Position numbers and translations under genes: made by a program
In this document: one piece after another, positions 1 to 26,602 of the stretch
Layout of the letters: the number at the start of each line of letters is the position of its first letter
How positions within the stretch are numbered: position 1 is the stretch's first letter
Origin: a virus
Virus record (IMG/VR): IMGVR_UViG_3300047476_000899
Coordinates: 1 to 26,602 of that record
Length of the DNA: 26,602 nt
Reading direction: 5' to 3' (one strand)
Notes under the pieces: model-generated
What the model saw: only the letters and a program-made list of their open reading frames with translations
Databases searched by the model: none
What the model was told of the DNA's origin: nothing

Positions 1-451
1 CTTTATTATCGGTTGTACCTAGAACATTACCTAATCTTAATATGCGATATTTTAATCCAAAAGTTTCACAATATGATATCAGTAATTGTTCTGCGGTTCT
101 TTTTGTAATTGAATAGAAACCTTTAGGATCACAATGTGAATCTTCTTTGGCTGGTAATTCAACGTTACCGTAAACGAACCACGAACTTATGAAATTAAAG
201 ACTGCATCAGGTGAATTCTCTCTAAAAGATTTCAACACATCCATTAATACAGATAAGTTTGTATCAATGTCGATGTGTAGGTCTGTATGCACATTATAAT
301 TATCAACAGTTGAAATGAAATAAACTATATCGGTGACACCAGGTGTCACTTCATAGTCATCACGAGCATTAACAATTTTTGTGTGGCCAGTTAATTCACA
401 ATATCGAGTACCAACAAAGCCTTTACCAAAGACATTAATTAATCGTTCCAT
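1..451 (-). CDS. NAD-dependent epimerase/dehydratase, partial (C-terminus off the window)
   Basis: This is the first 150 residues of a short-chain dehydrogenase/reductase of the extended nucleotide-sugar type. An N-terminal Rossmann glycine motif GKGFVG lies at residues 9-14. The catalytic set follows: Ser in SSWFVYG near residues 89-90, and YSITK with Tyr113 and Lys117. Enzymes of this family epimerise, dehydrate or reduce the sugar of a nucleotide-activated hexose in the cytoplasm. The ATG at 451 overlaps the end of the RfbH-type dehydrase gene by 13 nt, so the two are probably translated together and act on the same sugar. The exact reaction cannot be read because the substrate-binding C-terminal half lies outside the window. 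The family is clear; the substrate is not. Confidence 0.85.
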   Translation of the reverse strand, partial: MERLINVFGKGFVGTRYCELTGHTKIVNARDDYEVTPGVTDIVYFISTVDNYNVHTDLHIDIDTNLSVLMDVLKSFRENSPDAVFNFISSWFVYGNVELPAKEDSHCDPKGFYSITKRTAEQLLISYCETFGLKYRILRLGNVLGTTDNK

Positions 452-1725
452 TTTTCACATACCTTGTCGATATAATTTAGAATTTTATAGTTCCATAATG
501 GTGAGCATCCAACAAAGAATACATTACTGAGTGCGAGGTTTGAATTTGGATAATTTCTATAATCATCTAGGTGTTGATAACCAGGATGCAACAATATATT
601 ACCACTAAAGTAATTACGAGTTTGAATCTTGTTTGCTTCAAAATGTGCAACCAGTTTTTCTTTTACTTGTTGTGATTCACAGTAAATAGGAACACCAAAC
701 CAAGAAGGATCACCTTTTGGTAATGCATCAATTACTCTTACTTGTTTGATGTGATTCCGAATCGATTTTTGTACAACGTCCTTATATTCACGACGCTTTT
801 CATCAATGTATTCAAACTTCTTCAGTTGTTCTATACCAATAGCACCCTGTAAGTCTAAAGGTTTTAAATTATAACCCATAGTTGTGAAAACATACTTATG
901 ATCGATTGTACCATTATAGTTGGCCAACCATTCATCAAAACGATTACCACAAGTTCCACATTCCAATAAATTGTTTGAACCAACACAGTAACAATCACGT
1001 CCCCACCATGATACACTACGTGCAATATTCATGTACGCTTCATCATTAGAGCAAACCATTCCACCCTCACCTGTAGAGATATGGTGCGCCGGATAAAATG
1101 ATGTAGACCAACAGTAATAATAATCTGTTAGCAACTTACCATCCCAACGTGTGCCTAATGAATCACAGTTATCACCAATCAAAAGAATGTTGTGTCTTTC
1201 ACAAATATCTTTCAATTTGTCCATGTCAGGCGGATTACCAAGTACGGGAGAAACAAATATACCTCTGGTTCTAGGTGTAATCTTAGATTCAATTAGATCA
1301 ATATCGAAATTGAGTGTATTCAATTCAATATCGATGAATACGGCCTTCATTCCATTTTGAACGATAGGTGCGATTGTGGTTGGGAATCCTACAGGTGATA
1401 CGATAATCTCATCACCATCCTGCCATTTTAAATAATGTTTTAATGCAGTAATCATCACAAGGTTGGCCGAACTACCAGAATTGACCATGTGTGAATACTT
1501 CACATCAAATTTCTTACTGAATTTATTTTGAAATTGTGCGACCTTTTCACCTGATGTTACCCATTTACCATTCAGTAAGGCATCAAGTGCAACTCGCATT
1601 TCATTTTCATCCCACAATTGACCGGAATATTGAATGAAGTCGCCTTCTTTGTAATCATCATATTTTTTAACATACTTTGGTTGAACTGTAACTGCCAGTT
1701 CATTAATCAAATCATTCGTGTTCAT
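439..1725 (-). CDS. RfbH-like CDP-4-keto-6-deoxyglucose-3-dehydrase (DegT/DnrJ/EryC1 family)
   Basis: A 428-residue fold-type I PLP-family protein. Two features single out the E1/RfbH branch of 3-deoxysugar dehydrases. First, the usual PLP-binding lysine is replaced by histidine in FYPAHHISTGEGG (His214, followed by His215). Second, four cysteines follow (C245, C247, C256, C259), in the region where E1 enzymes hold a [2Fe-2S] cluster. Known family members use PMP plus the cluster to remove the C3 hydroxyl of CDP-4-keto-6-deoxyglucose on the route to 3,6-dideoxyhexoses such as ascarylose or abequose. They need an E3-type reductase, which is not in this window. It is flanked by an epimerase and glycosyltransferase genes, fitting nucleotide-sugar synthesis for a glycan. 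Substrate and nucleotide carrier are inferred from the family. Confidence 0.9.
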   Translation of the reverse strand: MNTNDLINELAVTVQPKYVKKYDDYKEGDFIQYSGQLWDENEMRVALDALLNGKWVTSGEKVAQFQNKFSKKFDVKYSHMVNSGSSANLVMITALKHYLKWQDGDEIIVSPVGFPTTIAPIVQNGMKAVFIDIELNTLNFDIDLIESKITPRTRGIFVSPVLGNPPDMDKLKDICERHNILLIGDNCDSLGTRWDGKLLTDYYYCWSTSFYPAHHISTGEGGMVCSNDEAYMNIARSVSWWGRDCYCVGSNNLLECGTCGNRFDEWLANYNGTIDHKYVFTTMGYNLKPLDLQGAIGIEQLKKFEYIDEKRREYKDVVQKSIRNHIKQVRVIDALPKGDPSWFGVPIYCESQQVKEKLVAHFEANKIQTRNYFSGNILLHPGYQHLDDYRNYPNSNLALSNVFFVGCSPLWNYKILNYIDKVCEKWND

Positions 1726-1749
1726 TTAAAAAATCCTTTAATGTGAATT

Positions 1750-2481
1750 TTACATCTCTACTTTATAAGTCCAAACACCTTCTTTTTGTGTTACTTCCTG
1801 AACATCTGTCCTATAATATGATGGAGGTGAATACCATCGACCACTAGGACCTAAATGCATTTCATACCAATTAGGTTTTCCACTGCCAATCCAACACTCC
1901 ATATCAAATCTATGATGCGGTTGTCCTTCAAATTGCGGTTTGAAATTTGCCTCAGGTGGTGGTAAGAGTCTATGACATTTACGGATGTATGATGCTTTTG
2001 CCCAAAAGAAAGTACCTGGATAGAATCCATAAGGAGGATCAGGTAAGTATGCTGCACCTACGGTGTCATAACCTTCATTCAGTTTTTCTACACATTCTTT
2101 CCATTTCTCAACAGTGAAGTATTGCATATAGTGACGCCAATTTTGATGGCCACCTGGTGCATGAGAAATTCCTTTACATGTCATGCAAAGAACATAATAC
2201 TCATCTTCTGATGCATGAGCCCGTTCTTGTATTCCTTGTATGGTAGTTCCTTCAAACCACTCTTTATAACTTTCATCAAATAAATGGAATTTTACATTCG
2301 GCCTGTTTTGCCATCTATCTTCAAGCCACTTGAAATTTTCTTTGTTGAAATGCATCATCAAATTAATTTCTGCAGCAGCATCAATTAATCCTGTTCTTTC
2401 AAGTAATTCTACTTGTTCTTCTAAAATTTGTTTACCGTTAGGTAAGTCCATTGCATGAATGTAAATTTTAATATCTTTCAT
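1750..2481 (-). CDS. Putative glycosyltransferase-like protein
   Basis: A 243-residue soluble protein. It starts with a beta-strand-like MKDIKIYIHAMDLPNG and has a His/Trp-rich middle (GGHQNWRHYMQYF near residues 110-122). A stretch DTVGAAYLPDPPYGFYPGTFFWAKASYI follows in short pieces typical of sugar-transferase families, where the acceptor end is lined by aromatic residues. No convincing DxD metal site was found, so the assignment rests mainly on this layout and on context: it lies inside a run of glycosyltransferases. Its ATG overlaps the TGA of the DUF5672-like gene by 4 nt (ATGA), which indicates coupled translation. It could instead be a glycan-binding or glycan-modifying enzyme. Confidence 0.5.
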   Translation of the reverse strand: MKDIKIYIHAMDLPNGKQILEEQVELLERTGLIDAAAEINLMMHFNKENFKWLEDRWQNRPNVKFHLFDESYKEWFEGTTIQGIQERAHASEDEYYVLCMTCKGISHAPGGHQNWRHYMQYFTVEKWKECVEKLNEGYDTVGAAYLPDPPYGFYPGTFFWAKASYIRKCHRLLPPPEANFKPQFEGQPHHRFDMECWIGSGKPNWYEMHLGPSGRWYSPPSYYRTDVQEVTQKEGVWTYKVEM

Positions 2482-3158
2482 AATTCAACTCCATAATTTT
2501 TCGCAATACCATGTTTACCATGAAACCCTAAACTTTTTCCAACCCATTCGTGATTGTAGTTAAGTTCTACACTGAATCTATTTGCAATGTGTGATGGTGC
2601 AAATTTGATTCCGTGTTTTGTTTCTAATTCATTTCTATGTATTTTGCAAATAACATTATCTTCAGGAATAAGATATTGACCTTTTGTAAATACATGATAA
2701 TCTGAATTATGTATTAAACCACCAAACTGTTCTGTAGCAAAATTGACATTCATTTTATTTAATGCTTGATACAGTTTTTGTGACCTCAAACAGAAACCAC
2801 CATTACCAACACGGCCGTCTTGCCATGTTGCACCAATATAATCATATTCAAAGAATTCATCAGTCCATGCATCTTTGTTGACTGCAAACCCATCAGAATG
2901 AATAATCAAATTAAAATCTTCAGTACAAATAACAGGACAAAGTTTTAATGTAATATTACCATATTCATCATTATAACTTTTAATTCTTGGTATTTTTATC
3001 CAAAAAACTTCTACATCAATAGGTTCAGGAAAAGGAATATCACTAAACCAATAAACCGATGTAATCTTATCACCTAAAGTTTCAAGTGTTTTTTTAAGTG
3101 CTTTAATACTTGGTGTATAGTGTAAAGTATCAATAACTGTTATACTAAGTGTTTTCAT
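2478..3158 (-). CDS. DUF5672-family putative glycosyltransferase
   Basis: A 226-residue protein with the layout of the DUF5672 family, which is widely found in glycan clusters. The N-terminal half is strand-rich. HSDGFAVN at about residues 87-94 follows, then EYDYIGATW at about 104-112, and VGNGGFCLRS at about 117-126. The HSDGF segment takes the place of the metal and nucleotide-sugar binding DxD found in GT-A enzymes. The VGNGGF segment is the most conserved signature of the family. The function is a sugar transfer inferred from fold and neighbourhood; the donor and acceptor are unknown. It is joined by 4-nt ATGA overlaps to both neighbours. Confidence 0.7.
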   Translation of the reverse strand: MKTLSITVIDTLHYTPSIKALKKTLETLGDKITSVYWFSDIPFPEPIDVEVFWIKIPRIKSYNDEYGNITLKLCPVICTEDFNLIIHSDGFAVNKDAWTDEFFEYDYIGATWQDGRVGNGGFCLRSQKLYQALNKMNVNFATEQFGGLIHNSDYHVFTKGQYLIPEDNVICKIHRNELETKHGIKFAPSHIANRFSVELNYNHEWVGKSLGFHGKHGIAKNYGVEL

Positions 3159-3808
3159 GTGTTACGATTCTTTTTGATTGCAATAACAGTTAATATATTG
3201 GGTAGGCCATCAACAGGAGTTCTTACAACATCTTCACAATTACCCAAGTAAAGAACTTTATAATCGGAGGAGTTAAGTAAATTGGCCAAACCATGTGAAT
3301 CAAAATGGTGTAAGTGTTCGTTTTCTCTACGGTGCTTCCAATTCATAAACCATTCGTTTCCTTGTTCTTCGTGATACCAAGGTACAGAAATACAAACGTA
3401 TTTTGTTTTCAGACCACGGAGAAAAGGAACTAATTCCATCTCTGGAAGATGTTCAAGTGAATCATAAAAAGTTACCACATCAACTTCATAATCATTTACA
3501 TTATCAATTTTTAGAGAACCTATAGGTGTCGGATAATCCGATATATCAAACCCGTAGGTTGTCTTACCGTTCTTGACACAATGTTGTAGAAATGCACCAT
3601 TACCATAACCAAAGTCGGTAACACTACTAAAGTTTTTAATTACTTTGGTTAACAAATTAAATCTCAACTCAGACATTCTATCATTTGTTGTATAAGTATC
3701 ATATCTTTGTTTTGAATATGATGAAGAATAATCTGGTATAGGTCCTGTCATTTTGTCCTGATACAAATAACCACCAATATCACCAAACATTTTTTTATAA
3801 ATTCTCAT
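3155..3808 (-). CDS. Class I SAM-dependent methyltransferase
   Basis: A 217-residue Rossmann-fold methyltransferase. Motif I is DFGYGNG (residues 65-71). An acidic residue ending the second strand (YGFDIS, Asp88) would bind the ribose of S-adenosylmethionine, and YDSLEHL at 115-121 matches motif IV/post-IV of class I enzymes. The ATG at 3808 is preferred over an upstream TTG at 3826 because it makes an ATGA overlap with the preceding gene, and because the GGAG Shine-Dalgarno at 3821-3824 overlaps that TTG. In a glycan cassette such enzymes commonly O- or N-methylate a sugar, and this is the likely role here. Modification of another acceptor cannot be ruled out. Confidence 0.75.
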   Translation of the reverse strand: MRIYKKMFGDIGGYLYQDKMTGPIPDYSSSYSKQRYDTYTTNDRMSELRFNLLTKVIKNFSSVTDFGYGNGAFLQHCVKNGKTTYGFDISDYPTPIGSLKIDNVNDYEVDVVTFYDSLEHLPEMELVPFLRGLKTKYVCISVPWYHEEQGNEWFMNWKHRRENEHLHHFDSHGLANLLNSSDYKVLYLGNCEDVVRTPVDGLPNILTVIAIKKNRNT

Positions 3809-4512
3809 AATAAATCTAATCTCCAATTACTATTGTGAAACATGTTTATATTTCCTTTTCCTTGCATCGCATAGAAAGGAGTAGTATGTAATAGTCCTAC
3901 TGATCCATAATAATAATTTAATTTCTCTTTCTTAGGTAAGACAGATGCAAAGTGTGATGTTCCAGTATCACCACCAACATAGTGACTACAATCAACTATA
4001 TGTTCTATGTTTTCAATAAAATCATAACTATTTTTCCAACCATCATAGAAGGTTGTATGTGTATCACTCTTTGCACAAATAATCTTTTCATAATCCTTAT
4101 ACTCATCTTTCGAGTAATGTTCAACGATAGAATCTAACATTGGATTGGACCAGTTTCTATATGTGTTATATGCACCATCAAACAATGGAGCAATTACAAT
4201 TTTCTTTTTTATTGGCCGATTAAAATCTAGTAATAGTATATCACCAGTTAATGATCTAAAATCCCAAAGATTCACATTATTCACATTCAATGAATTCGTT
4301 CCTGCATCGGTGGAAAGGAAAGAAACGTTGTCATTCAACCAATTACGAAATTTAATGATATAATCAGATTGATGTATTGATCGATCTGGAATGTGAAGTT
4401 TAATATCACCACCATGTTGTGGTGCCAACCAAGCATAGAAATTCAGTGCAGCAATAATATCTCCGTTGCGGAGTGGTCCACCGAAATTGTGTGGCTCAAT
4501 ATTAATAATCAT
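3805..4512 (-). CDS. GT9/heptosyltransferase-like glycosyltransferase
   Basis: A 235-residue protein related to the GT-B C-terminal half of ADP-heptose:LPS heptosyltransferases (GT9). The best signature is HYVGGDTGTSHFASVL near residues 178-192, matching the GGDTG/S-x-x-H donor-binding loop of that family, which sits after predicted beta-strands. The N-terminus (NFGGPLRNGDIIAAL) resembles the GDxl start of GT9 proteins. It is short compared with the usual 320-350 residues. The next gene upstream carries the other GT9-like start, so the two may work as a pair. The 11-nt overlap with that gene supports co-translation. Acceptor unknown. Confidence 0.6.
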   Translation of the reverse strand: MIINIEPHNFGGPLRNGDIIAALNFYAWLAPQHGGDIKLHIPDRSIHQSDYIIKFRNWLNDNVSFLSTDAGTNSLNVNNVNLWDFRSLTGDILLLDFNRPIKKKIVIAPLFDGAYNTYRNWSNPMLDSIVEHYSKDEYKDYEKIICAKSDTHTTFYDGWKNSYDFIENIEHIVDCSHYVGGDTGTSHFASVLPKKEKLNYYYGSVGLLHTTPFYAMQGKGNINMFHNSNWRLDLL

Positions 4513-5245
4513 ATTTAAAATCTTTTAAATAAACTAGTTTTGATTCCCTATCTTGATAGAAATGCATTTTAAATACATGTTCTATATCCCAACCTTGCCA
4601 ATTTCTCATATCTTCGTCCCACAAGATATAACTATCTTTCTTCATAAGATCGGCAAGTACAGCAATACCAGTAAATGTGGTAACAAATGCATTTGTATTA
4701 TATTTGATTAACGAACAATTATACAATAATTCATTAGTATAGTCAAGACAAAAACCTTTTTTATGTGGAATAATTTCAGATGTTTCTATTAAATTGGAAT
4801 ATCTCCGTTCATCCACATCAGGTGCATCTTTTGGTGACCATCTATCACCAATAATAAGTTTGTCGGAGTGGTAATCGATATCATATTTTGGTATTTGTAA
4901 TTCAAAGTTATCATCACTTTCTAAATCTAATTTGTATGTGTGATTTAAAAAGTTTAGATATTTTCTAACGACAATAGGAGAATTGAGATTGCCTTCTTCT
5001 GTTCCTGTATCATCCATAAGTACACAATTCATAGGGTTGAACTGTTTTTCGTGTAAGAACCAAACATTAGAAAACATTTCCTGTTCCAATAGTAGTTCTC
5101 TGATACCTTTAAATCTTTGTAATCTATCACAGATTGTAAATGATATTTTCTTGTCAAACCTTTTATATAAGGCCGATAATGCAGGTAAACAATGAGCAAA
5201 ATCACCCAAATTATGGATTCTAGGAGATACTATATCGATGTTCAT
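4502..5245 (-). CDS. GT9-like putative glycosyltransferase
   Basis: A 247-residue protein that opens with HNLGDFAHCLPALSALYKRF. This is the GD-x(2-4)-xLPal-aL pattern at the N-terminus of heptosyltransferase-like (GT9) enzymes. The C-terminal part, around TFTGIAVLADL, has the small-residue loop where these enzymes bind the nucleotide but lacks the full GGDTGxxH signature present in its neighbour. It is also shorter than a full GT9. It overlaps both neighbours (ATGA with the HtrL/YibB-like gene, 11 nt with the other GT9-like gene). The family is likely; the donor sugar is unknown. Confidence 0.5.
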   Translation of the reverse strand: MNIDIVSPRIHNLGDFAHCLPALSALYKRFDKKISFTICDRLQRFKGIRELLLEQEMFSNVWFLHEKQFNPMNCVLMDDTGTEEGNLNSPIVVRKYLNFLNHTYKLDLESDDNFELQIPKYDIDYHSDKLIIGDRWSPKDAPDVDERRYSNLIETSEIIPHKKGFCLDYTNELLYNCSLIKYNTNAFVTTFTGIAVLADLMKKDSYILWDEDMRNWQGWDIEHVFKMHFYQDRESKLVYLKDFKYDY

Positions 5246-6063
5246 ATGTTATCATTATATTTTCTAAAAATTCTGAACCAATCATTTGGATCTGCTGGAT
5301 GCAATTCAAATTCATCGGGTTTGGTGAGAAATGACATCAACAAAAGAGTTTGGTCATCATCAATCAAATTGTGTAACAATAATAAATTTACATTGTCCAT
5401 TACTAGTTCTTTCAGTAATGACCATTTCTTTGTGCCAGCAACAATATGACAACCTTGTATATAAACATCTCCAGTATATATTATGTCATTTATTGGTCTA
5501 GGATCAATATTACGTTGATTAAAGAAATGTATTTTCTCTTTATTGAAATCATATGTCCAACGATTTGATGCAGGTATCGTAGTGTTATTACGAACGTAAC
5601 CAAAATCGATCCATGCAGTCAAGTCGTTTGATATTAAATTCTTTTCGATAGCATCTGTTACATACCAAGCCTTGAATATATTAACCAACACATAATCAGC
5701 ATGCCAATATTCTATTAATTGTGGATTAATGACTTTATCATAATAATTAGGATCATCCATAGTTTTTTGAACACGTTCTTTTATTTGTTCATATTCTGTT
5801 GGTAGATACGATTCTCTAGTTACAACTTTAGTGAGTTCTTCAAGTCCATTTTCTTTTCGAATTGTTAAAACTCTATCTTCAAAATCTGGAGTGGTGTATA
5901 TCACCATCTCATTTTGTAGTTTAGCTAAGTTACTAAAGAATTCAAAATAAGTGTCAACACTTCTATGTTGATAGAATGGCAGTTCACGTCCATGTTTAGA
6001 CTTTGGTAAATTTCCTCTACCTATATCATAAAATGCTGTGACAACTGAAATATCTTTATTCAT
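5242..6063 (-). CDS. HtrL/YibB (WlaTC)-family putative glycosyltransferase
   Basis: A 273-residue protein beginning MNKDISVVTAFYDIGRGN, the characteristic N-terminus of the HtrL/YibB/WlaTC family. It continues with the family's YFEFFSNLAKLQNEMVIYT block. Members sit in lipo-oligosaccharide and capsule clusters and are treated as glycosyltransferases of GT-A type. Further on, TAWIDFGYVR supplies the acidic residue expected at the nucleotide-sugar site. I start at the ATG at 6063; a TTG 12 nt upstream is open but has no better ribosome site. The start lies 5 nt beyond the end of the preceding gene. The donor and acceptor are unknown. Confidence 0.7.
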   Translation of the reverse strand: MNKDISVVTAFYDIGRGNLPKSKHGRELPFYQHRSVDTYFEFFSNLAKLQNEMVIYTTPDFEDRVLTIRKENGLEELTKVVTRESYLPTEYEQIKERVQKTMDDPNYYDKVINPQLIEYWHADYVLVNIFKAWYVTDAIEKNLISNDLTAWIDFGYVRNNTTIPASNRWTYDFNKEKIHFFNQRNIDPRPINDIIYTGDVYIQGCHIVAGTKKWSLLKELVMDNVNLLLLHNLIDDDQTLLLMSFLTKPDEFELHPADPNDWFRIFRKYNDNI

Positions 6064-6901
6064 ATTTTCTTTCAATTTTATCTTTCCAATCCGGTACTCT
6101 ATTATATTGATGCACCATTACATATTTTTCACCTTTACTTGTGTAAACATACTCACCATCAAAAACAGGTTCAGGACTCAATAGATGAGGCCTAAAGGTG
6201 TTTATTTTGTTGGGGTCTACTGTAGTTCCACATTCACATGCCCAATTGTCATCATGATCGTTAAATTTGGTTAATGAAAGATATGGTTCAATAGATAACA
6301 TCACATTAACACCAGCTTGATCTGGTGTTGGATTTTGTATATTACTTATTGCCAAAGAAACAGCCAATGAAAAGTCTTTAAATGTATTAAATTCACCTGC
6401 CATTGAACCGGCATTATAGATTGGCCTATCTTTCATGTGTTGATAAAGTTGAGGAAAACAATCCATCATATTTTGATTTCCCCAGGCCTCATCTTTATAT
6501 TTTAAACCTTCGCAACCATAATTAAGTTTTTTGTCACCAAGATTGTTTTCAAGCCATGTTGATGGATTCACTTGAAATACGACATCAGATATATCGGTTG
6601 AAATAACATATCGTATATCTTGGTCTTTGAGTTGATTCAATAATGCCCAATAGAAATGATGTCTGAGCATTGGTACTTGATAAGTTAATCCTTCAACGAA
6701 TAAGTAACCATCATTATTTTTGTTTCTATTCTGAGAAGCAAGATAAACAGTTACACCCTGTTCTTCAAGTTTCTTCTTCGTTTCATCTTTCATATTAAAG
6801 GCTATAATTGCAATTATACCCTTGAATCCAGTTTGTTTGATTGAGTTTACCCAATACTTCATCTTGTCGTAACCATATTCGGATACGGCACTAATAATCA
6901 T
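6056..6901 (-). CDS. GT-A-type putative glycosyltransferase
   Basis: A 281-residue protein with a GT-A-like order. Strands at the N-terminus (MIISAVSEYGYDK, then GIIAIIAF) lead to the acidic motif STDISDVVFQ with Asp103 and Asp106, a DxxD variant of the metal-binding DxD. YNAGSMAGEFNTF resembles the acceptor-side NxG segment of family 8/34-like enzymes. A late conserved-looking histidine occurs in VMVHQYNR, as in enzymes that use a C-terminal His as third metal ligand. The ATG at 6901 is preferred to a GTG at 6910 because it makes an ATGA overlap with the preceding gene. Specificity is unknown. Confidence 0.6.
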   Translation of the reverse strand: MIISAVSEYGYDKMKYWVNSIKQTGFKGIIAIIAFNMKDETKKKLEEQGVTVYLASQNRNKNNDGYLFVEGLTYQVPMLRHHFYWALLNQLKDQDIRYVISTDISDVVFQVNPSTWLENNLGDKKLNYGCEGLKYKDEAWGNQNMMDCFPQLYQHMKDRPIYNAGSMAGEFNTFKDFSLAVSLAISNIQNPTPDQAGVNVMLSIEPYLSLTKFNDHDDNWACECGTTVDPNKINTFRPHLLSPEPVFDGEYVYTSKGEKYVMVHQYNRVPDWKDKIERKYE

Positions 6902-7689
6902 ATCTCGCACAATTCTTCTCCCAATTTCCGAATGATGTTAGTAATATACAATGGTTGAGTAGATATATTAAGTTCTTTTGTGAGCTTGTTATTGTCTATG
7001 ATGAACTGTTCTTTCATAACATCACTTGTGCATAAAAATTCACCAGCGCCATATCCACGAATCAGATATTTTGCAACTTTTCCTATTTCTAATCCATAGT
7101 TGGAACTCAAATTATAAATTCCAGTTAATTTTCTTTTTGAAATACTATCAAGCAACATACATGATGTACCTATATCAATGAAATCTCTTTTTACATGTTC
7201 ACTGATAGTAAAGACAATCTTTGAGTCGGATATCAATTGATTCATGCAAAATCCCATGAATGATTGTCTACCAAGTTCAAAACCGAAAAGGTTTGATCCA
7301 CGAACAATTACCGACTTATCACCAAATTCTTTTTGAATCTTGTATTCAGATATTAACTTATTTTCACTATAAAAGTCAAATGGATTTGTCTGACTTTCTT
7401 CGGTAAATGTTCTTAAATCTGCATATGAACCATATACCTTTCTTGTGGACAACATTACATAATTACATCCACTTTCATATGAAAGTTTTGCCATCTGATA
7501 ATCCACATCCTTTTCTTGGTCATAAGGTTGTGTTTTAAATGTTGGATTCAATGCACAATTAACCACACAATCATATTTTGAAAAATCAACATGATGTATA
7601 TTATTATACCCAACTATATCAAAATCTTCTAGTTTGGCCAGTTCCTTTGCAATAAAACTGGTCTTACCGATTACTAGTCGTTTCGCCAA
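6898..7689 (-). CDS. NAD-dependent sugar reductase/epimerase (RmlD-like SDR)
   Basis: A 263-residue extended SDR protein. The N-terminal dinucleotide segment is RLVIGKTSFIAKEL (residues 4-17), with the loose glycine pattern of RmlD-type 4-ketoreductases. STRKVYG (81-87) carries the Ser/Thr of the catalytic triad, and YSENK gives Tyr107 and Lys111. RGSNLFG further on is the typical substrate-loop strand. Such enzymes reduce or epimerise NDP-4-keto-deoxyhexoses, so it may complete the deoxysugar started by the RfbH-like dehydrase. The only plausible start is TTG at 7689, with GGAG 7 nt upstream. The gene overlaps the end of the GT2 gene by 16 nt. Confidence 0.8.
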   Translation of the reverse strand: MAKRLVIGKTSFIAKELAKLEDFDIVGYNNIHHVDFSKYDCVVNCALNPTFKTQPYDQEKDVDYQMAKLSYESGCNYVMLSTRKVYGSYADLRTFTEESQTNPFDFYSENKLISEYKIQKEFGDKSVIVRGSNLFGFELGRQSFMGFCMNQLISDSKIVFTISEHVKRDFIDIGTSCMLLDSISKRKLTGIYNLSSNYGLEIGKVAKYLIRGYGAGEFLCTSDVMKEQFIIDNNKLTKELNISTQPLYITNIIRKLGEELCEI

Positions 7690-8384
7690 GGTAGAACTCC
7701 ATTATATTTTTCAGACATCACTTTGTTGCCTTCATCAAAAAATTCTTTAGTAACAGAACCTTGATTACCAGCTAATCTATAATTTACTGTATATTTTTTG
7801 GTACAATCCCATCTCTTGAAATGAGTGGTTATTGCTTGCAAGAATACTCTATCTTGTCCCCATCCACCATGCCAAATTGAGGCCATTCTGATTAGAACAT
7901 CTCTACGCACACAATAAGAATTTGTGTCGATGTGATTTACTTTTGTCCATGCAGGCCACAAACCAAGACTTTCACAATCATCGTTACATATGTAATTGCC
8001 GTCTTTGTCCATTATCTTTCTAAGTGAATAAGACCACTCAAGATTTTTCTCTTTGATCTTTAAGACACAAGAACCTACATGATCTTTATCGAACCAACAG
8101 TCTTGATCTAAGAATAAAACATATTCTTCGTTAACTAGGTGTGAGAAAGCTGCATAGACACGATGGCCATAAAAACCATTTGCACCTACGTTGTCTGGTA
8201 GATAACAGACTTTAAAGTTGGGATTTCCTAAGTATTCATCAGCAATAGTTTTAACCTTGCCTTTGAATTGGTCACCATCACATACCAAATATAATTTGGT
8301 GGGATATGTTTGATTTAAAACACTTTCAATTGCAGTACGTACCTCAGGCGCACCTGTGGTAGGTAAAATAACAACAGCACTCAT
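7674..8384 (-). CDS. Family 2 glycosyltransferase
   Basis: A 236-residue GT2 (GT-A fold) protein. The opening VVILPTTGAPEVRTAIESVLNQTY is the usual GT2 first strand and helix. LVCDGDQ (Asp36, Asp38) is the uridine-binding acidic site, and FLDQDCWF (Asp93, Asp95) is the DxD metal motif. GGWGQDRVFLQ near the C-terminus provides the G-x-(E/Q)D catalytic-base segment. No membrane segment is seen, so it is cytoplasmic. It is the first gene of the glycan cassette in transcription order and has a good ribosome site (GAGG, 6 nt before ATG). It follows the membrane-protein gene by only 18 nt, so it may be read from the replication block too. Confidence 0.85.
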   Translation of the reverse strand: MSAVVILPTTGAPEVRTAIESVLNQTYPTKLYLVCDGDQFKGKVKTIADEYLGNPNFKVCYLPDNVGANGFYGHRVYAAFSHLVNEEYVLFLDQDCWFDKDHVGSCVLKIKEKNLEWSYSLRKIMDKDGNYICNDDCESLGLWPAWTKVNHIDTNSYCVRRDVLIRMASIWHGGWGQDRVFLQAITTHFKRWDCTKKYTVNYRLAGNQGSVTKEFFDEGNKVMSEKYNGVLPWRND

Positions 8385-10491: not shown

Positions 10492-11590
10492 TTATGATAT
10501 CTATGTGTTTGCCACTAGTCCATACTTCTAATTCACTTCTTAGTCGACCTTCCGATTTTAGTGTTTCATATCGGTTAGTCGCTTTGTGTTTCCACCACTT
10601 AACTATGTTTTCCAGATTGTGTTTCTCATAATTATCACCCTTGACCAGATTATCGCACGTTCCGTTCACAAAGTCAACCATATTCTTAAATCCATAATCA
10701 GAAACATAGTACCGTTTCTGTTCAGTTAGATTCTTTGCATTATCGATTGTTGTCTGAAATTCAACACCTTCAGGAGTACCTTTCAGTGCAGCCTTAGTCA
10801 GAGCAATGATCTTCATACTAATTTTAAGTTTCTTACTTGAAACATCTTTATCAACCAACTCTCCAACCTTAGACTGTACAAAATCTCTGAGTTCAGAATA
10901 TGGTTTACCGTGCATCATCGGTAAGAAATCTGATTCGGTAAGGCCTTTATATCTAATATAAGGTTTCATGCCATCATATTGTGATGTTGTTTTAGAACTA
11001 CCATATAAACTAGTGGTTTCAAACAGGCAAAGATTCATGTTGTATTTCTTATTGACGATTTCACGCATTTCATGAGAAGTGCAAATGGCAGCCAATAATT
11101 TACCACCAAGATAATTATAACCAAAAGGTTGACTTGGTACAATAACAAAACCCATCATTGCAGAGTTATTAAAACGTTTGGCACCTTCAGGAGTCTGTGT
11201 AAAAACTTGTCCAAGCATTTCGTTTCTAGGTCTACAGTTGATTACAGGTGAACCTAGCCGAATGAAACCTACGAACTTTCCTGTATTCTTTTCTCTTACT
11301 GCCACTTTAACATTACGGCCAACAGGTGCAATATTAATATGTGATGAGGTAATACTCAACATCGATTCCCATGATTCAGATGGTATTTCTACCACTTCTA
11401 AATCCATATCATTTGGATGCATCGAGAAATCGGAGAACAAATCATCTTCGATGGGAAATATACCTTGTGGTATCTCTGATAATGAGTTTAACTTTTGATC
11501 TCTCATATATTCATCAATACGATCAAAGTTACTGAAATAATCATGAAATGCCTTGGCACAAACCAAGGCATCTTCTTTAGTCAACATCAT
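10487..11590 (-). CDS. DUF4338 (DruA)-like protein
   Basis: A 367-residue soluble protein. Its middle follows the order of the DUF4338 family: GKFVGFIRLGSPVI (a strand with a small-residue turn), then RPRNEML, then MMGFVIVPSQPFGYNYLGGKLLAA (the FlIlP-x(n)-N-LaskLL segment). CLFETTSLYGSS stands in for the LvETF-x(n)-G segment, and YIRYKGLT stands in for the Wi-x-lG end. DUF4338 is best known from DruA of the Druantia anti-phage system, and no catalytic mechanism is established to my knowledge. Here it sits directly after the gp41 helicase with an ATGA overlap, so a role in phage DNA replication or recombination is more natural than host defence. The family match is from pattern memory only. 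Confidence 0.6.
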   Translation of the reverse strand: MMLTKEDALVCAKAFHDYFSNFDRIDEYMRDQKLNSLSEIPQGIFPIEDDLFSDFSMHPNDMDLEVVEIPSESWESMLSITSSHINIAPVGRNVKVAVREKNTGKFVGFIRLGSPVINCRPRNEMLGQVFTQTPEGAKRFNNSAMMGFVIVPSQPFGYNYLGGKLLAAICTSHEMREIVNKKYNMNLCLFETTSLYGSSKTTSQYDGMKPYIRYKGLTESDFLPMMHGKPYSELRDFVQSKVGELVDKDVSSKKLKISMKIIALTKAALKGTPEGVEFQTTIDNAKNLTEQKRYYVSDYGFKNMVDFVNGTCDNLVKGDNYEKHNLENIVKWWKHKATNRYETLKSEGRLRSELEVWTSGKHIDIIR

Positions 11591-24858: not shown

Positions 24859-24933
24859 TGGTGCCCCAGGCAGGAATCGAACCCACACACCCGCATTACA
24901 AGTGCGGACCTCTACCACTAAGGATACAAGGGC
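24859..24933 (-). tRNA. tRNA-Thr (TGT anticodon)
   Basis: A 75-nt cloverleaf: acceptor GCCCTTG with CTGGGGC (one T-T mismatch), anticodon stem CCGCA/TGCGG with loop CTTGTAA (TGT, reads ACA), T-loop TTCGATT and encoded CCA. Its first G is also the last base of the TAG stop of the carboxypeptidase gene. Confidence 0.93.
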
Positions 24934-25655
24934 TATAAACTTTCTATTATTGCTCTACCAACATGTTGAACACTTTTAGTATTATGTTCACCTAAGATTA
25001 CAATTATATACTGTTCTTCATTCTTTGTCAAGTACATAACTAAACATTTACCAGCTAGGTTTGTAAACCCAGTTTTGGATATTTGTATCTCATTAAAATC
25101 TTTTAATAAATTAATATTGGTATTATTTACTGTTATTACTTTAGTTTTCTTCTTACGTGATTCATATATCTTAAAACTGGCCGTTGATGACATTTCTCTA
25201 ATTCTTGAATACACATAAGCATGTTGCAGTAAAATTGCCAAATCTTTTGCTGTGCTTCTATTATTAGAATTGAGTCCTGATGCATCTCTGTAATGTGTAT
25301 TAATCATTCCATATTGCATTGCTTGAATATTCATTGCAATAATAAAATTATCTCTACCACCAGGATAACTTCTCGCTAATGCTTCTGCGGCCTGATTATC
25401 ACTTTTAACTAACATCAAATACAATAATTCTTCTTTAGTTCTTTGTTTACCACGATAGTGGATTTTTATTGATAATGAATCACCCACATTTAAACTAATT
25501 ATTGCCGTCATCAATTTAGTAACTGATGCTATAGGTCTTATCATCTCTGAATTATCATCAATTATAACTTGATCTTTAGTAACATTATAAACATACTTTG
25601 TAGATGCATAACTTGTAGTACAAAGAAATGCAAGGATCAAAAATATGTTTTTCAT
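24933..25655 (-). CDS. D-alanyl-D-alanine carboxypeptidase (peptidase S11, PBP-type)
   Basis: A 240-residue exported penicillin-binding-protein fold. It has a signal peptide (MKNIFLILAFLCTTSYA, about residues 1-17). The catalytic S-x-x-K is SVTK (Ser44, Lys47), the S-x-N is SDN (Ser85, Asn87), and the KTG motif is KTG (Lys194-Gly196). All catalytic residues are present. It would trim the terminal D-Ala of peptidoglycan stem peptides in the periplasm. It lacks the C-terminal domain and membrane anchor of DacA/DacC (about 380-400 residues), so it is a minimal, soluble form. The ATG and ribosome site (AAGGA) lie in a 10-bp hairpin, suggesting translational control. In a phage it may remodel the wall during infection. 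Confidence 0.88.
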   Translation of the reverse strand: MKNIFLILAFLCTTSYASTKYVYNVTKDQVIIDDNSEMIRPIASVTKLMTAIISLNVGDSLSIKIHYRGKQRTKEELLYLMLVKSDNQAAEALARSYPGGRDNFIIAMNIQAMQYGMINTHYRDASGLNSNNRSTAKDLAILLQHAYVYSRIREMSSTASFKIYESRKKKTKVITVNNTNINLLKDFNEIQISKTGFTNLAGKCLVMYLTKNEEQYIIVILGEHNTKSVQHVGRAIIESL

Positions 25656-25683
25656 ATTCTTTTCCTTAGAGCAAAAAGAATAT
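25654..25683 (-). promoter_or_regulatory. Ribosome-site hairpin of the carboxypeptidase gene
   Basis: On the minus strand ATATTCTTTT (25683-25674) and AAAAGAATAT (25663-25654) are perfect 10-bp complements with a 10-nt loop. The loop holds most of the AAGGA ribosome site, and the A and T of the start codon lie in the closing pairs. ACTAAATA at 25688-25681, matching the last six bases of the late box, would start transcripts near 25675 and so remove most of the 5' arm. Confidence 0.65.
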
Positions 25684-25895
25684 TTAGTATAGGTGCTCTG
25701 ACGGACCCCGGAGGTAATTATACCGCATCAGGCTCGCTTTTTGGAACTTGCCATCACGCACGGCCTCCACCCTCTCCCCGACGGGTCCCGTTCTCGCATT
25801 GCCAGCGCACTTTCGGTTTGAAGTGTACCACCCGTGAGAGTCACCTCACTTCTCATCCTGCGGGTCACAGTATCCGCTAACAAAGCGGAACGGCT
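25684..25895 (-). ncRNA. GC-rich structured RNA domain, unknown family
   Basis: No credible coding frame is seen here. The region 25741-25920 is 58% GC by hand count, against roughly a third in most neighbouring genes. Complementary arms are dense: a 6-bp hairpin at 25873-25889 (5-nt loop), a 5-bp hairpin at 25834-25849, and an alternative 6-bp pair 25820-25825 with 25847-25852. A long-range 8-bp pair with one bulge joins 25701-25708 and 25783-25791. It directly follows the CCA of the tRNA-like element and ends just before the carboxypeptidase hairpin. I assign it to the minus strand because the tRNAs are there. I see no signature of RNase P, tmRNA, SRP RNA or a known riboswitch. A large ornate phage RNA is the best guess. 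Confidence 0.55.
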
Positions 25896-25983
25896 TGGTG
25901 AAGATGACAGGGTGTGATCCTGTGCTGATGGGTAGGCGTCTATAACCTGTGTACCCACTGCTCTACGTTTAAGCTACATCTTC
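25896..25983 (-). tRNA. tRNA-like element with extended anticodon arm
   Basis: An 88-nt element with a perfect 7-bp acceptor (GAAGATG/CATCTTC), discriminator A, encoded CCA, T8-A9, a 4-bp D-stem (GCTT/GAGC) and a 5-bp T-stem (ACAGG/CCTGT). The T-loop is ATCACAC, keeping C56 only. The anticodon stem GTGGGTA/TACCCAT (7 bp with a G-T) closes a 17-nt loop, not a 7-nt loop, so no anticodon can be assigned. It starts 6 nt after tRNA-Tyr. It may be a pseudo-tRNA, or a processing and end-forming domain of the adjoining RNA. Confidence 0.55.
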
Positions 25984-25989
25984 AAAATT

Positions 25990-26071
25990 TGGTGGGTTGG
26001 GTAGGGATCGAACCTACTTGCCGAAGCCACGGGTTTACAGCCCGCTGCCCTACCATTAGAGCATCCAACCC
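25990..26071 (-). tRNA. tRNA-Tyr (GTA anticodon)
   Basis: An 82-nt class II cloverleaf: acceptor GGGTTGG with CCAACCC, D-stem GCTC/GGGC, anticodon loop CTGTAAA (GTA), an extended variable arm, T-stem GTAGG/CCTAC with loop TTCGATC, discriminator A and encoded CCA. Confidence 0.95.
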
Positions 26072-26082
26072 ATTATAAAACT

Positions 26083-26161
26083 TGGCTCCGCATTAGAGAA
26101 TCGAACTCTACTAGCCAGTGATTAACAGTCACGCCCATGCACCTTGCTCGGGTTCTGCGGA
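26083..26161 (-). tRNA. tRNA-Asn (GTT anticodon)
   Basis: A 79-nt cloverleaf: acceptor TCCGCAG with ATGCGGA (mismatch at 7-66), a short CCC/GGG D-stem with a long D-loop, anticodon loop CTGTTAA (GTT), T-stem TAGAG/CTCTA with loop TTCGATT, discriminator G as in other Asn tRNAs and encoded CCA. Confidence 0.92.
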
Positions 26162-26170
26162 ATTGAAACT

Positions 26171-26245
26171 TGGCGATCCGTAGGAGAATCGAACTCCTAT
26201 ATTCCGCTAGACAGGCGGATATAATAACCACTATATGAACGGACC
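26171..26245 (-). tRNA. tRNA-Asp (GTC anticodon)
   Basis: A 75-nt cloverleaf: acceptor GGTCCGT with ACGGATC (one G-T pair), anticodon stem TCCGC/GCGGA with loop CTGTCTA (GTC), T-stem TAGGA/TCCTA with loop GTTCGAT-type TTC sequence, discriminator G and encoded CCA. It is the first tRNA after the long non-coding stretch at the right edge. Confidence 0.94.
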
Positions 26246-26602
26246 AATTATAAGATTAGGCTACTTACTCCCATAAGCCCCTAACTGAGCGGTTACTCTG
26301 TCCATCACATTTACTTATGGCAAGGTGTGATACCCACCTAACGATGTTCCAAGGCTCCCATAATCAGGACTTGAGGTCAAATTGATCGTCAGCACCCTAG
26401 CATTGTGGTGAAGCTAATTACCCCCTTTAATAACGCAGAAGGGACTGCGGGATTCTTTTTACTATTAATTGTGTTATCATGTTATACCTAGGATTCACCG
26501 CCTAGGGTTTGCATTTTATAGGATTGCACTTATTGGCCTATCGTCATAGGTTTTTCGTCAATCACACCCCGCAAACCTTGTAAGATATCGTCCAGTTTGT
26601 TG
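26246..26602 (-). ncRNA. Structured non-coding RNA stretch, continuing past the window
   Basis: No open frame of note lies here on either strand. The stretch 26281-26580 is 43% GC by hand count, above the coding regions. Paired arms are frequent: 26506-26512 with 26571-26577 (7 bp), hairpins at 26537-26550 (5 bp) and 26487-26506 (6 bp), 26271-26277 with 26314-26320 (7 bp), 26323-26327 with 26335-26339, and 26341-26345 with 26385-26389. A probable H-type pseudoknot has a 5-bp stem (26434-26438 with 26445-26449) whose loop AAGGG (26439-26443) matches CCCTT at 26423-26427. The tRNA strand is assumed. It may be the 5' part of a large RNA that includes the tRNAs and the GC-rich block at 25684-25895. 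Confidence 0.5.

Follow-up and report, generated by a model that had tools for sequence, protein, structure and literature searches.

The window analysed here, the whole of a 26.6-kb IMG/VR record (IMGVR_UViG_3300047476_000899, positions 1 to 26,602), encodes a T4-type DNA polymerase, a UvsX-like recombinase, and a DnaB-like helicase along with tRNAs, all on the minus strand. The closest cultured polymerases, from Synechococcus T4-like phages, are approximately 51% identical to that of the window. Consecutive minus-strand genes at 439-8384, including those for an aminotransferase, a methyltransferase, an epimerase, and HtrL_YibB/DUF5672 proteins, are suggestive of surface-sugar synthesis.

An earlier note, made from the letters alone, had described positions 25684-26602 as a GC-rich region devoid of genes and as a possible large phage RNA built around a tRNA array. 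The GC contrast was borne out (41-58% at 25700-26602 vs approximately 26-33% in the adjoining coding DNA), as was the absence of genes, the only reading frames at 25700-26602 being 2 chance ORFs of 76 and 52 amino acids on the minus strand and, on the plus strand, the end of one of 103 amino acids. We identified the region as 2 unrelated, independent structured RNA families, here named F1 and F2, and part of a third element (E3), lying among same-strand tRNAs. The features, in the 5' to 3' order of the minus strand, are as follows:

26459-26602, minus strand: 3' part of E3, cut by the contig end, with its 3' terminal arm at 26481-26459
26249-26455, minus strand: F2 RNA, approximately 207 nt, of a divergent subgroup, identified by covariation and a model built without the window
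26171-26245, minus strand: tRNA-Asp (gtc), 3 nt downstream of F2, called by ARAGORN
26083-26161, minus strand: variant tRNA-Asn (gtt) with an enlarged D arm (AACCCGAGCAnGGTGCATGGGC), read by eye
25990-26071, minus strand: tRNA-Tyr (gta), called by ARAGORN
25899-25983, minus strand: tRNA-like element, 45 bits with the Rfam tRNA model
25694-25898, minus strand: F1 RNA, approximately 205 nt, identified by homologues, covariation, and a covariance model
25889-25885/25877-25873, minus strand: helix of F1
25870-25866/25862-25858, minus strand: second hairpin of F1, with loop ACCC at 25865-25862
25865-25862 with 25833-25830, minus strand: ACCC/GGGU pseudoknot of F1
25848-25844/25839-25835, minus strand: helix of F1
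25825-25821/25812-25808, minus strand: helix of F1
25807-25805/25797-25795, minus strand: CGC/GCG hairpin of F1
25788-25779/25710-25703, minus strand: long 3' stem of F1
25774-25771/25714-25711 and 25764-25759/25727-25722, minus strand: inner helices of the 3' stem

Directly downstream of F1 is a D-alanyl-D-alanine carboxypeptidase (Peptidase_S11) gene (24933-25655, minus strand), and a gene resembling it was found approximately 0.9 kb upstream of F1 in locus L125.

The tRNA-Tyr, tRNA-Asp, and tRNA-Asn and the strange tRNA-like element listed above had all been recognized in the earlier note. ARAGORN and the Rfam model both overlooked the tRNA-Asn owing to its enlarged D arm, which is also present in the tRNA-Asn of Acinetobacter phage KARL-1 (L325, approximately 5030-5110) and is thus conserved between distant phages. 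In the tRNA-like element, an insertion of approximately 20 nt extends the anticodon arm, and the T loop (AUCACAC) is non-canonical. The element is identical in the nearest relative, L002; in the window, it is followed by an encoded CCA and then directly by F1, whereas L002 has neither the CCA nor F1, so that CCA plus F1 forms a clean 213-nt presence/absence between the two. Three different tRNA-like elements were found directly 5' of F1, in the window, in L016 (2076-2144), and in L085 (7438-7504), each with odd T loops or D arms and with relatives elsewhere that lack F1.

The block at 25684-25895 corresponds to F1, and that at 26246-26602 to F2 together with the 3' part of E3. These blocks are separate elements, because L002 carries 26246-26602 (94% match) but lacks 25694-25898 at a clean junction, while L004 carries F1 (98% match to 25694-25900) between different tRNAs. 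Of the 28 long phage records, some have only F1 and others only F2, which speaks against one RNA spanning both blocks. The earlier proposal was thus right about structured noncoding RNA in a tRNA array and wrong about a single RNA built around the tRNAs. E3 is intact in L002 (6991-7190), where TTACCATTAATTGTGTTATTATG pairs with CATGATGACACAATTAATGGTAA in a terminal helix of 23 bp, 2 of them G-U, that closes the element; with only 2 copies known, E3 is the weakest of the 3 elements. A first search pattern for the block at 26246-26602, drawn from E3, was too specific and matched only L002. The self-complementarity that had been pointed out in both blocks was not in itself evidence, since single-sequence folds were no better than those of shuffled sequences (z = -0.55 and 0.13), and homologues were therefore needed; it was these that yielded structure.

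Homologues of F1 were found in well over 100 viral contigs. A first scan with a 16-base motif returned 47 stretches, mostly true homologues, and in a MAFFT alignment of 29 distinct copies, 16 of 46 pairs showed double changes. The covariance model of F1 then found it in approximately 40 loci fetched solely for carrying F2, and in these copies, 24 of 46 pairs were doubly changed and 97.1% of cells were paired, a result reached by none of 500 shuffles. A third motif, from the 3' half of F1, fetched at least 87 new loci, with F1 present in 84 of those. Among 73 distinct members of this set outside the training alignment, compensatory double changes were present in 30 of the 46 predicted pairs, and 97.2% of cells paired, compared with 79.8% in shuffled alignments and 36-51% in slid structures. 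The last 2 alignments were fitted to the F1 model, which favours the structure of the model; fitting is nonetheless a poor explanation of the covariation, given how wide the gap is and what the MAFFT alignment showed. The window scores 215.7 bits against the family model, its sequence being part of the training alignment. The 3' tail is conserved and ends in AGAGC, and the terminal arms are variable and exchanged between otherwise distinct members.

The predicted loop pseudoknot of F1 is supported: in ACCC/GGGU, A-U changes to G-C in 2 sequences, and C-G changes to U-A in 5 and to A-U in 1, with one or more pairs broken in 4-5 sequences. The CGC/GCG hairpin also covaries, with C-G replaced by U-A in 17 sequences. 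Weak helices at 25892-25890/25797-25795 and in the G-U-rich base of the third hairpin are alternatives to these 2 better-supported structures and are probably artefacts. A Streptomyces match to the F1 pattern was rejected as chance by its sequence, and the F1 model does not match it.

The core motif of F2 occurs in at least 119 contigs and defines an RNA of approximately 200 nt. With the window excluded from a model of 51 standard members, the window copy still scores 53.4 bits (E = 6e-13; 26251-26370), mainly in the 3' domain, and the 3' end of the block recurs in L090. F2 contains a 5' H-type pseudoknot, CGCAG/CUGCG in the subgroup of the window and CGGAC/GUCCG, CGGU/ACCG, or CGUG/CACG in relatives as read from the alignment; a second pseudoknot, AUCACA/UGUGAU; a conserved hairpin, GGACAGAGUAAC.GCUCA; and a 3' hairpin, UUAGGGGCU...AGUAGCCUAA. 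With a hand-set structure including both pseudoknots, 98.3% of cells were paired and 10 pairs were doubly changed, compared with 33-43% of cells in slid structures. Both pseudoknots covary, having been set by hand and then counted, and thus chosen after the alignment was inspected. The count of further pair types was not above that of shuffles, so the support for F2 rests on fewer variable pairs than that for F1, and RNAalifold recovered only the 3' hairpins from a mixed F2 alignment. Covariation among homologues, which the earlier note had set beforehand as the test, is strong in F1 and, over fewer variable pairs, in F2 including both pseudoknots, and on this comparative evidence, F1 and F2 are almost certainly real structured RNA families.

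F1 and F2 occur widely in uncultivated T4-like and huge phages and are gained and lost as units. Most of the 28 long phage records carry one F1 and/or one F2, some carry one family only, and 21 encode gp23 of the T4 major capsid family; these records were chosen mainly for carrying F1 or F2. We found neither family by blastn in 50,697 cultured phage records, where the matches were tRNAs, and no match in Synechococcus phage BUCT-ZZ01, Acinetobacter phage KARL-1, or T4. The core motif of F2 was absent from 84,980 species genomes, and blastn of F2 against plasmids gave no match. The absence of both families from cultured phages, and of the F2 core motif from genomes, explains why they are not in Rfam.

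A same-strand tRNA was present within 150 nt of 44 of 50 F1 copies and 49 of 51 F2 copies, compared with 17% for positions drawn at random from those loci, and near 50 of 64 F1 copies in the third set. Many F1 copies start right at the CCA of the upstream tRNA and stop approximately 10 nt before the next, and F2 typically lies 1-4 nt from a tRNA on either side. F1 is nevertheless a unit of its own, as copies exist away from tRNAs (L114, L125, L126, and several in the third set).

Further elements were observed in these arrays. Class A, approximately 210 nt, follows tRNA-Glu in L005, L016, L057, L083, L093, and L094; a long helix, TACTAAAACATATTGGG...CCCCAATGTGTTTTAGTA, joins its ends, and 15 of 38 RNAalifold pairs were doubly changed in a quick alignment of 14. 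Class B, approximately 117 nt (TTTGTTTTGCTGA...GTCAGCAAAACAAA), was found in L016, L026, L057, L086, L089, L106, and others (9 of 34 pairs doubly changed), and class B', approximately 143 nt, in L009, L083, L087, and L104 (17 of 47). Class C, with a variable interior closed by ATATAAAAAyACA...TGTrTTTTTATAT, occurs at L002 7410, L009 3653, L016 613, and approximately 60 other sites. Endonuclease-like ORFs adjoin F1 in L105 (616-1152, minus strand), L166 (1481-2011), and L206 (13023-13553); their N terminus resembles GIY-YIG by eye, and Pfam identifies a NUMOD3 motif. In L105, the flank of the ORF opposite F1 retains a broken piece of F1, which suggests homing into F1.

The arrays of related phages begin with sigma-70-type promoters followed by a boxA-like element; in the window, this part of the array lies beyond the contig end, and the boxA evidence comes from related arrays. 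In 45 of 56 distinct occurrences, the boxA-like motif precedes a tRNA-Glu, -Gln, or -Leu on the same strand by 20-35 nt, compared with 0 on the opposite strand and 4-8 in shuffles of all loci. A strict promoter pattern caught 6 of the 45 sites, with TTGACA and TATAAT-like boxes visible by eye in many others. L002 has TTGACA-17-TATAAT plus TGTACTTTAACAATTT, 27 nt before tRNA-Glu, and in L201, boxA is TGCTCTTTAACAATTT, identical to the string in the E. coli rrnH leader. In rRNA operons, boxA serves antitermination, and the same may hold in these phage arrays. This sequence or near variants start related F1/F2 arrays as they do rRNA operon leaders, but the phage boxA leads tRNAs with F1/F2, 20-35 nt before the first tRNA, whereas in E. 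coli rrnH it lies 141 nt before 16S.

We compared the region with known RNA families. Rfam 15 at the gathering threshold and at E<=10 gave only tRNAs and chance matches, with F1 and F2 unmatched and no known ribozyme found, and the tRNA covariance model matched only the tRNAs and the tRNA-like element. The GOLLD model (RF02032) had no match at E<=10 in 25600-26602 or in the homologous region of L002, while the same pipeline found GOLLD in L090 with 160 bits as a positive control; ROOL had no match at E<=10 in the scan with the whole library, whose positive control was GOLLD alone. The option of a new family, which the earlier note had left beside GOLLD or ROOL, is thus the one that the region fits. 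Like GOLLD and ROOL, F1 and F2 are structured, pseudoknotted phage RNAs in or beside tRNA arrays, but they measure approximately 200 nt rather than approximately 580-800+ nt, and in L090, GOLLD is a separate element approximately 2 kb from F1. The rnaC and rnaD RNAs of T4 (the species 1 and 2 stable RNAs; 139 and 119 nt) are likewise small noncoding RNAs inside a T4-like tRNA cluster but are not detectably related, as neither the T4 tRNA region nor the whole T4 record matched the F1 and F2 models. Transfer-messenger RNA is another pseudoknotted translation RNA that may share phages with F1 and F2, which lack its tRNA-like ends and tag reading frame and have no match in Rfam. The huge-phage tRNA region of L090 that carries F1 and F2 also contains a permuted tmRNA (6296-6692) and the GOLLD (10928-11336). 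Conserved F1/F2 words neither complemented nor mimicked E. coli 16S, 23S, or 5S rRNA more than they did shuffled rRNA. No description of F1 or F2 was found in open-access papers; both are previously uncatalogued and so far found only in uncultivated phages.

The best explanation overall, and the one to which we incline on balance, is that F1 and F2 are 2 independent new families of trans-acting RNAs, co-transcribed with tRNAs and freed by tRNA processing. Transcription of F1 and F2 together with the tRNAs would start at a promoter and run through a boxA leader of the rRNA operon type, antitermination at boxA would protect transcription of the array, and the enzymes that mature tRNAs would cut the flanking tRNAs and thereby free F1 and F2. 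As judged from the arrangement of these arrays, this combination of co-transcription and release is likely; the many copies that start at the CCA of the upstream tRNA and stop a few bases short of the next one argue for release by tRNA maturation, which would not be the sole route for F1, given the copies without nearby tRNAs. More tentatively, the freed RNAs could persist during infection as stable, trans-acting molecules that target translation or the tRNA machinery, whether as decoys or through binding to ribosomes or to enzymes that handle tRNAs. A link to ribosomes is plausible by analogy only, since GOLLD is reported to bind ribosomes in pull-downs in work cited in PMC12286853.

A single large GOLLD- or ROOL-like RNA enclosing the tRNAs, possibly forming a cage, would agree with the noncoding GC-rich blocks on both sides of the tRNAs and with the occurrence of GOLLD and ROOL near phage tRNA islands, where GOLLD can contain tRNAs (PMC12286853); it is very improbable given that F1 and F2 occur apart and at different places and that the region has no Rfam match to either family at E<=10, though GOLLD was found in L090. 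It is also unlikely that F1, F2, and their companions serve in cis as spacer or processing elements, perhaps self-cleaving, that shape the fold of the array transcript and direct its cleavage. Their flush position between tRNAs and the long terminal helices closing neighbouring classes fit such a role, but internal sequence conservation and pseudoknots far exceed the needs of a spacer, copies stand alone without tRNAs, many arrays lack F1 and F2, and no Rfam ribozyme matched.

Patchy gain and loss with approximately one copy per genome, and variable terminal arms swapped between otherwise distinct members, would suit counter-defence RNAs, such as decoys for tRNA-cutting or CRISPR-type defences; we regard this role as doubtful, as neither F1 nor F2 resembles any of the known anti-CRISPR or antitoxin RNAs in Rfam. 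The idea that homing endonucleases spread F1 and F2 as selfish elements riding on tRNA arrays draws on the GIY-YIG-type ORFs beside F1 and on the broken older F1 fragment next to an intact copy in L105, but is quite improbable, as only 3 such ORFs were found among all loci and the strong structural constraint implies that the RNA itself is functional.

If F1 and F2 are indeed trans-acting RNAs released from tRNA arrays, they perhaps help the virus take over the protein-making machinery of the host. A broader and more speculative possibility is a whole set of accessory RNAs in environmental T4-like and huge phages, comprising F1, F2, classes A-C, tRNA-like RNAs, tmRNA, and GOLLD, that would be transcribed like an rRNA operon with antitermination at boxA, excised by tRNA maturation, and used jointly in infection to reprogram or protect translation. 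Few structured RNA families of such size and covariation come to light, and learning what they do generally proves worthwhile. The carriers are common uncultivated phages of freshwater type, in which these RNAs sit in a translation gene cluster and appear to borrow the antitermination signal of rRNA operons. F1 and F2 add small, tractable relatives in context to the puzzle of GOLLD and ROOL and offer a testable route to the role of the stable non-tRNA RNAs of phage tRNA clusters, a question that dates from species 1 and 2 of T4.
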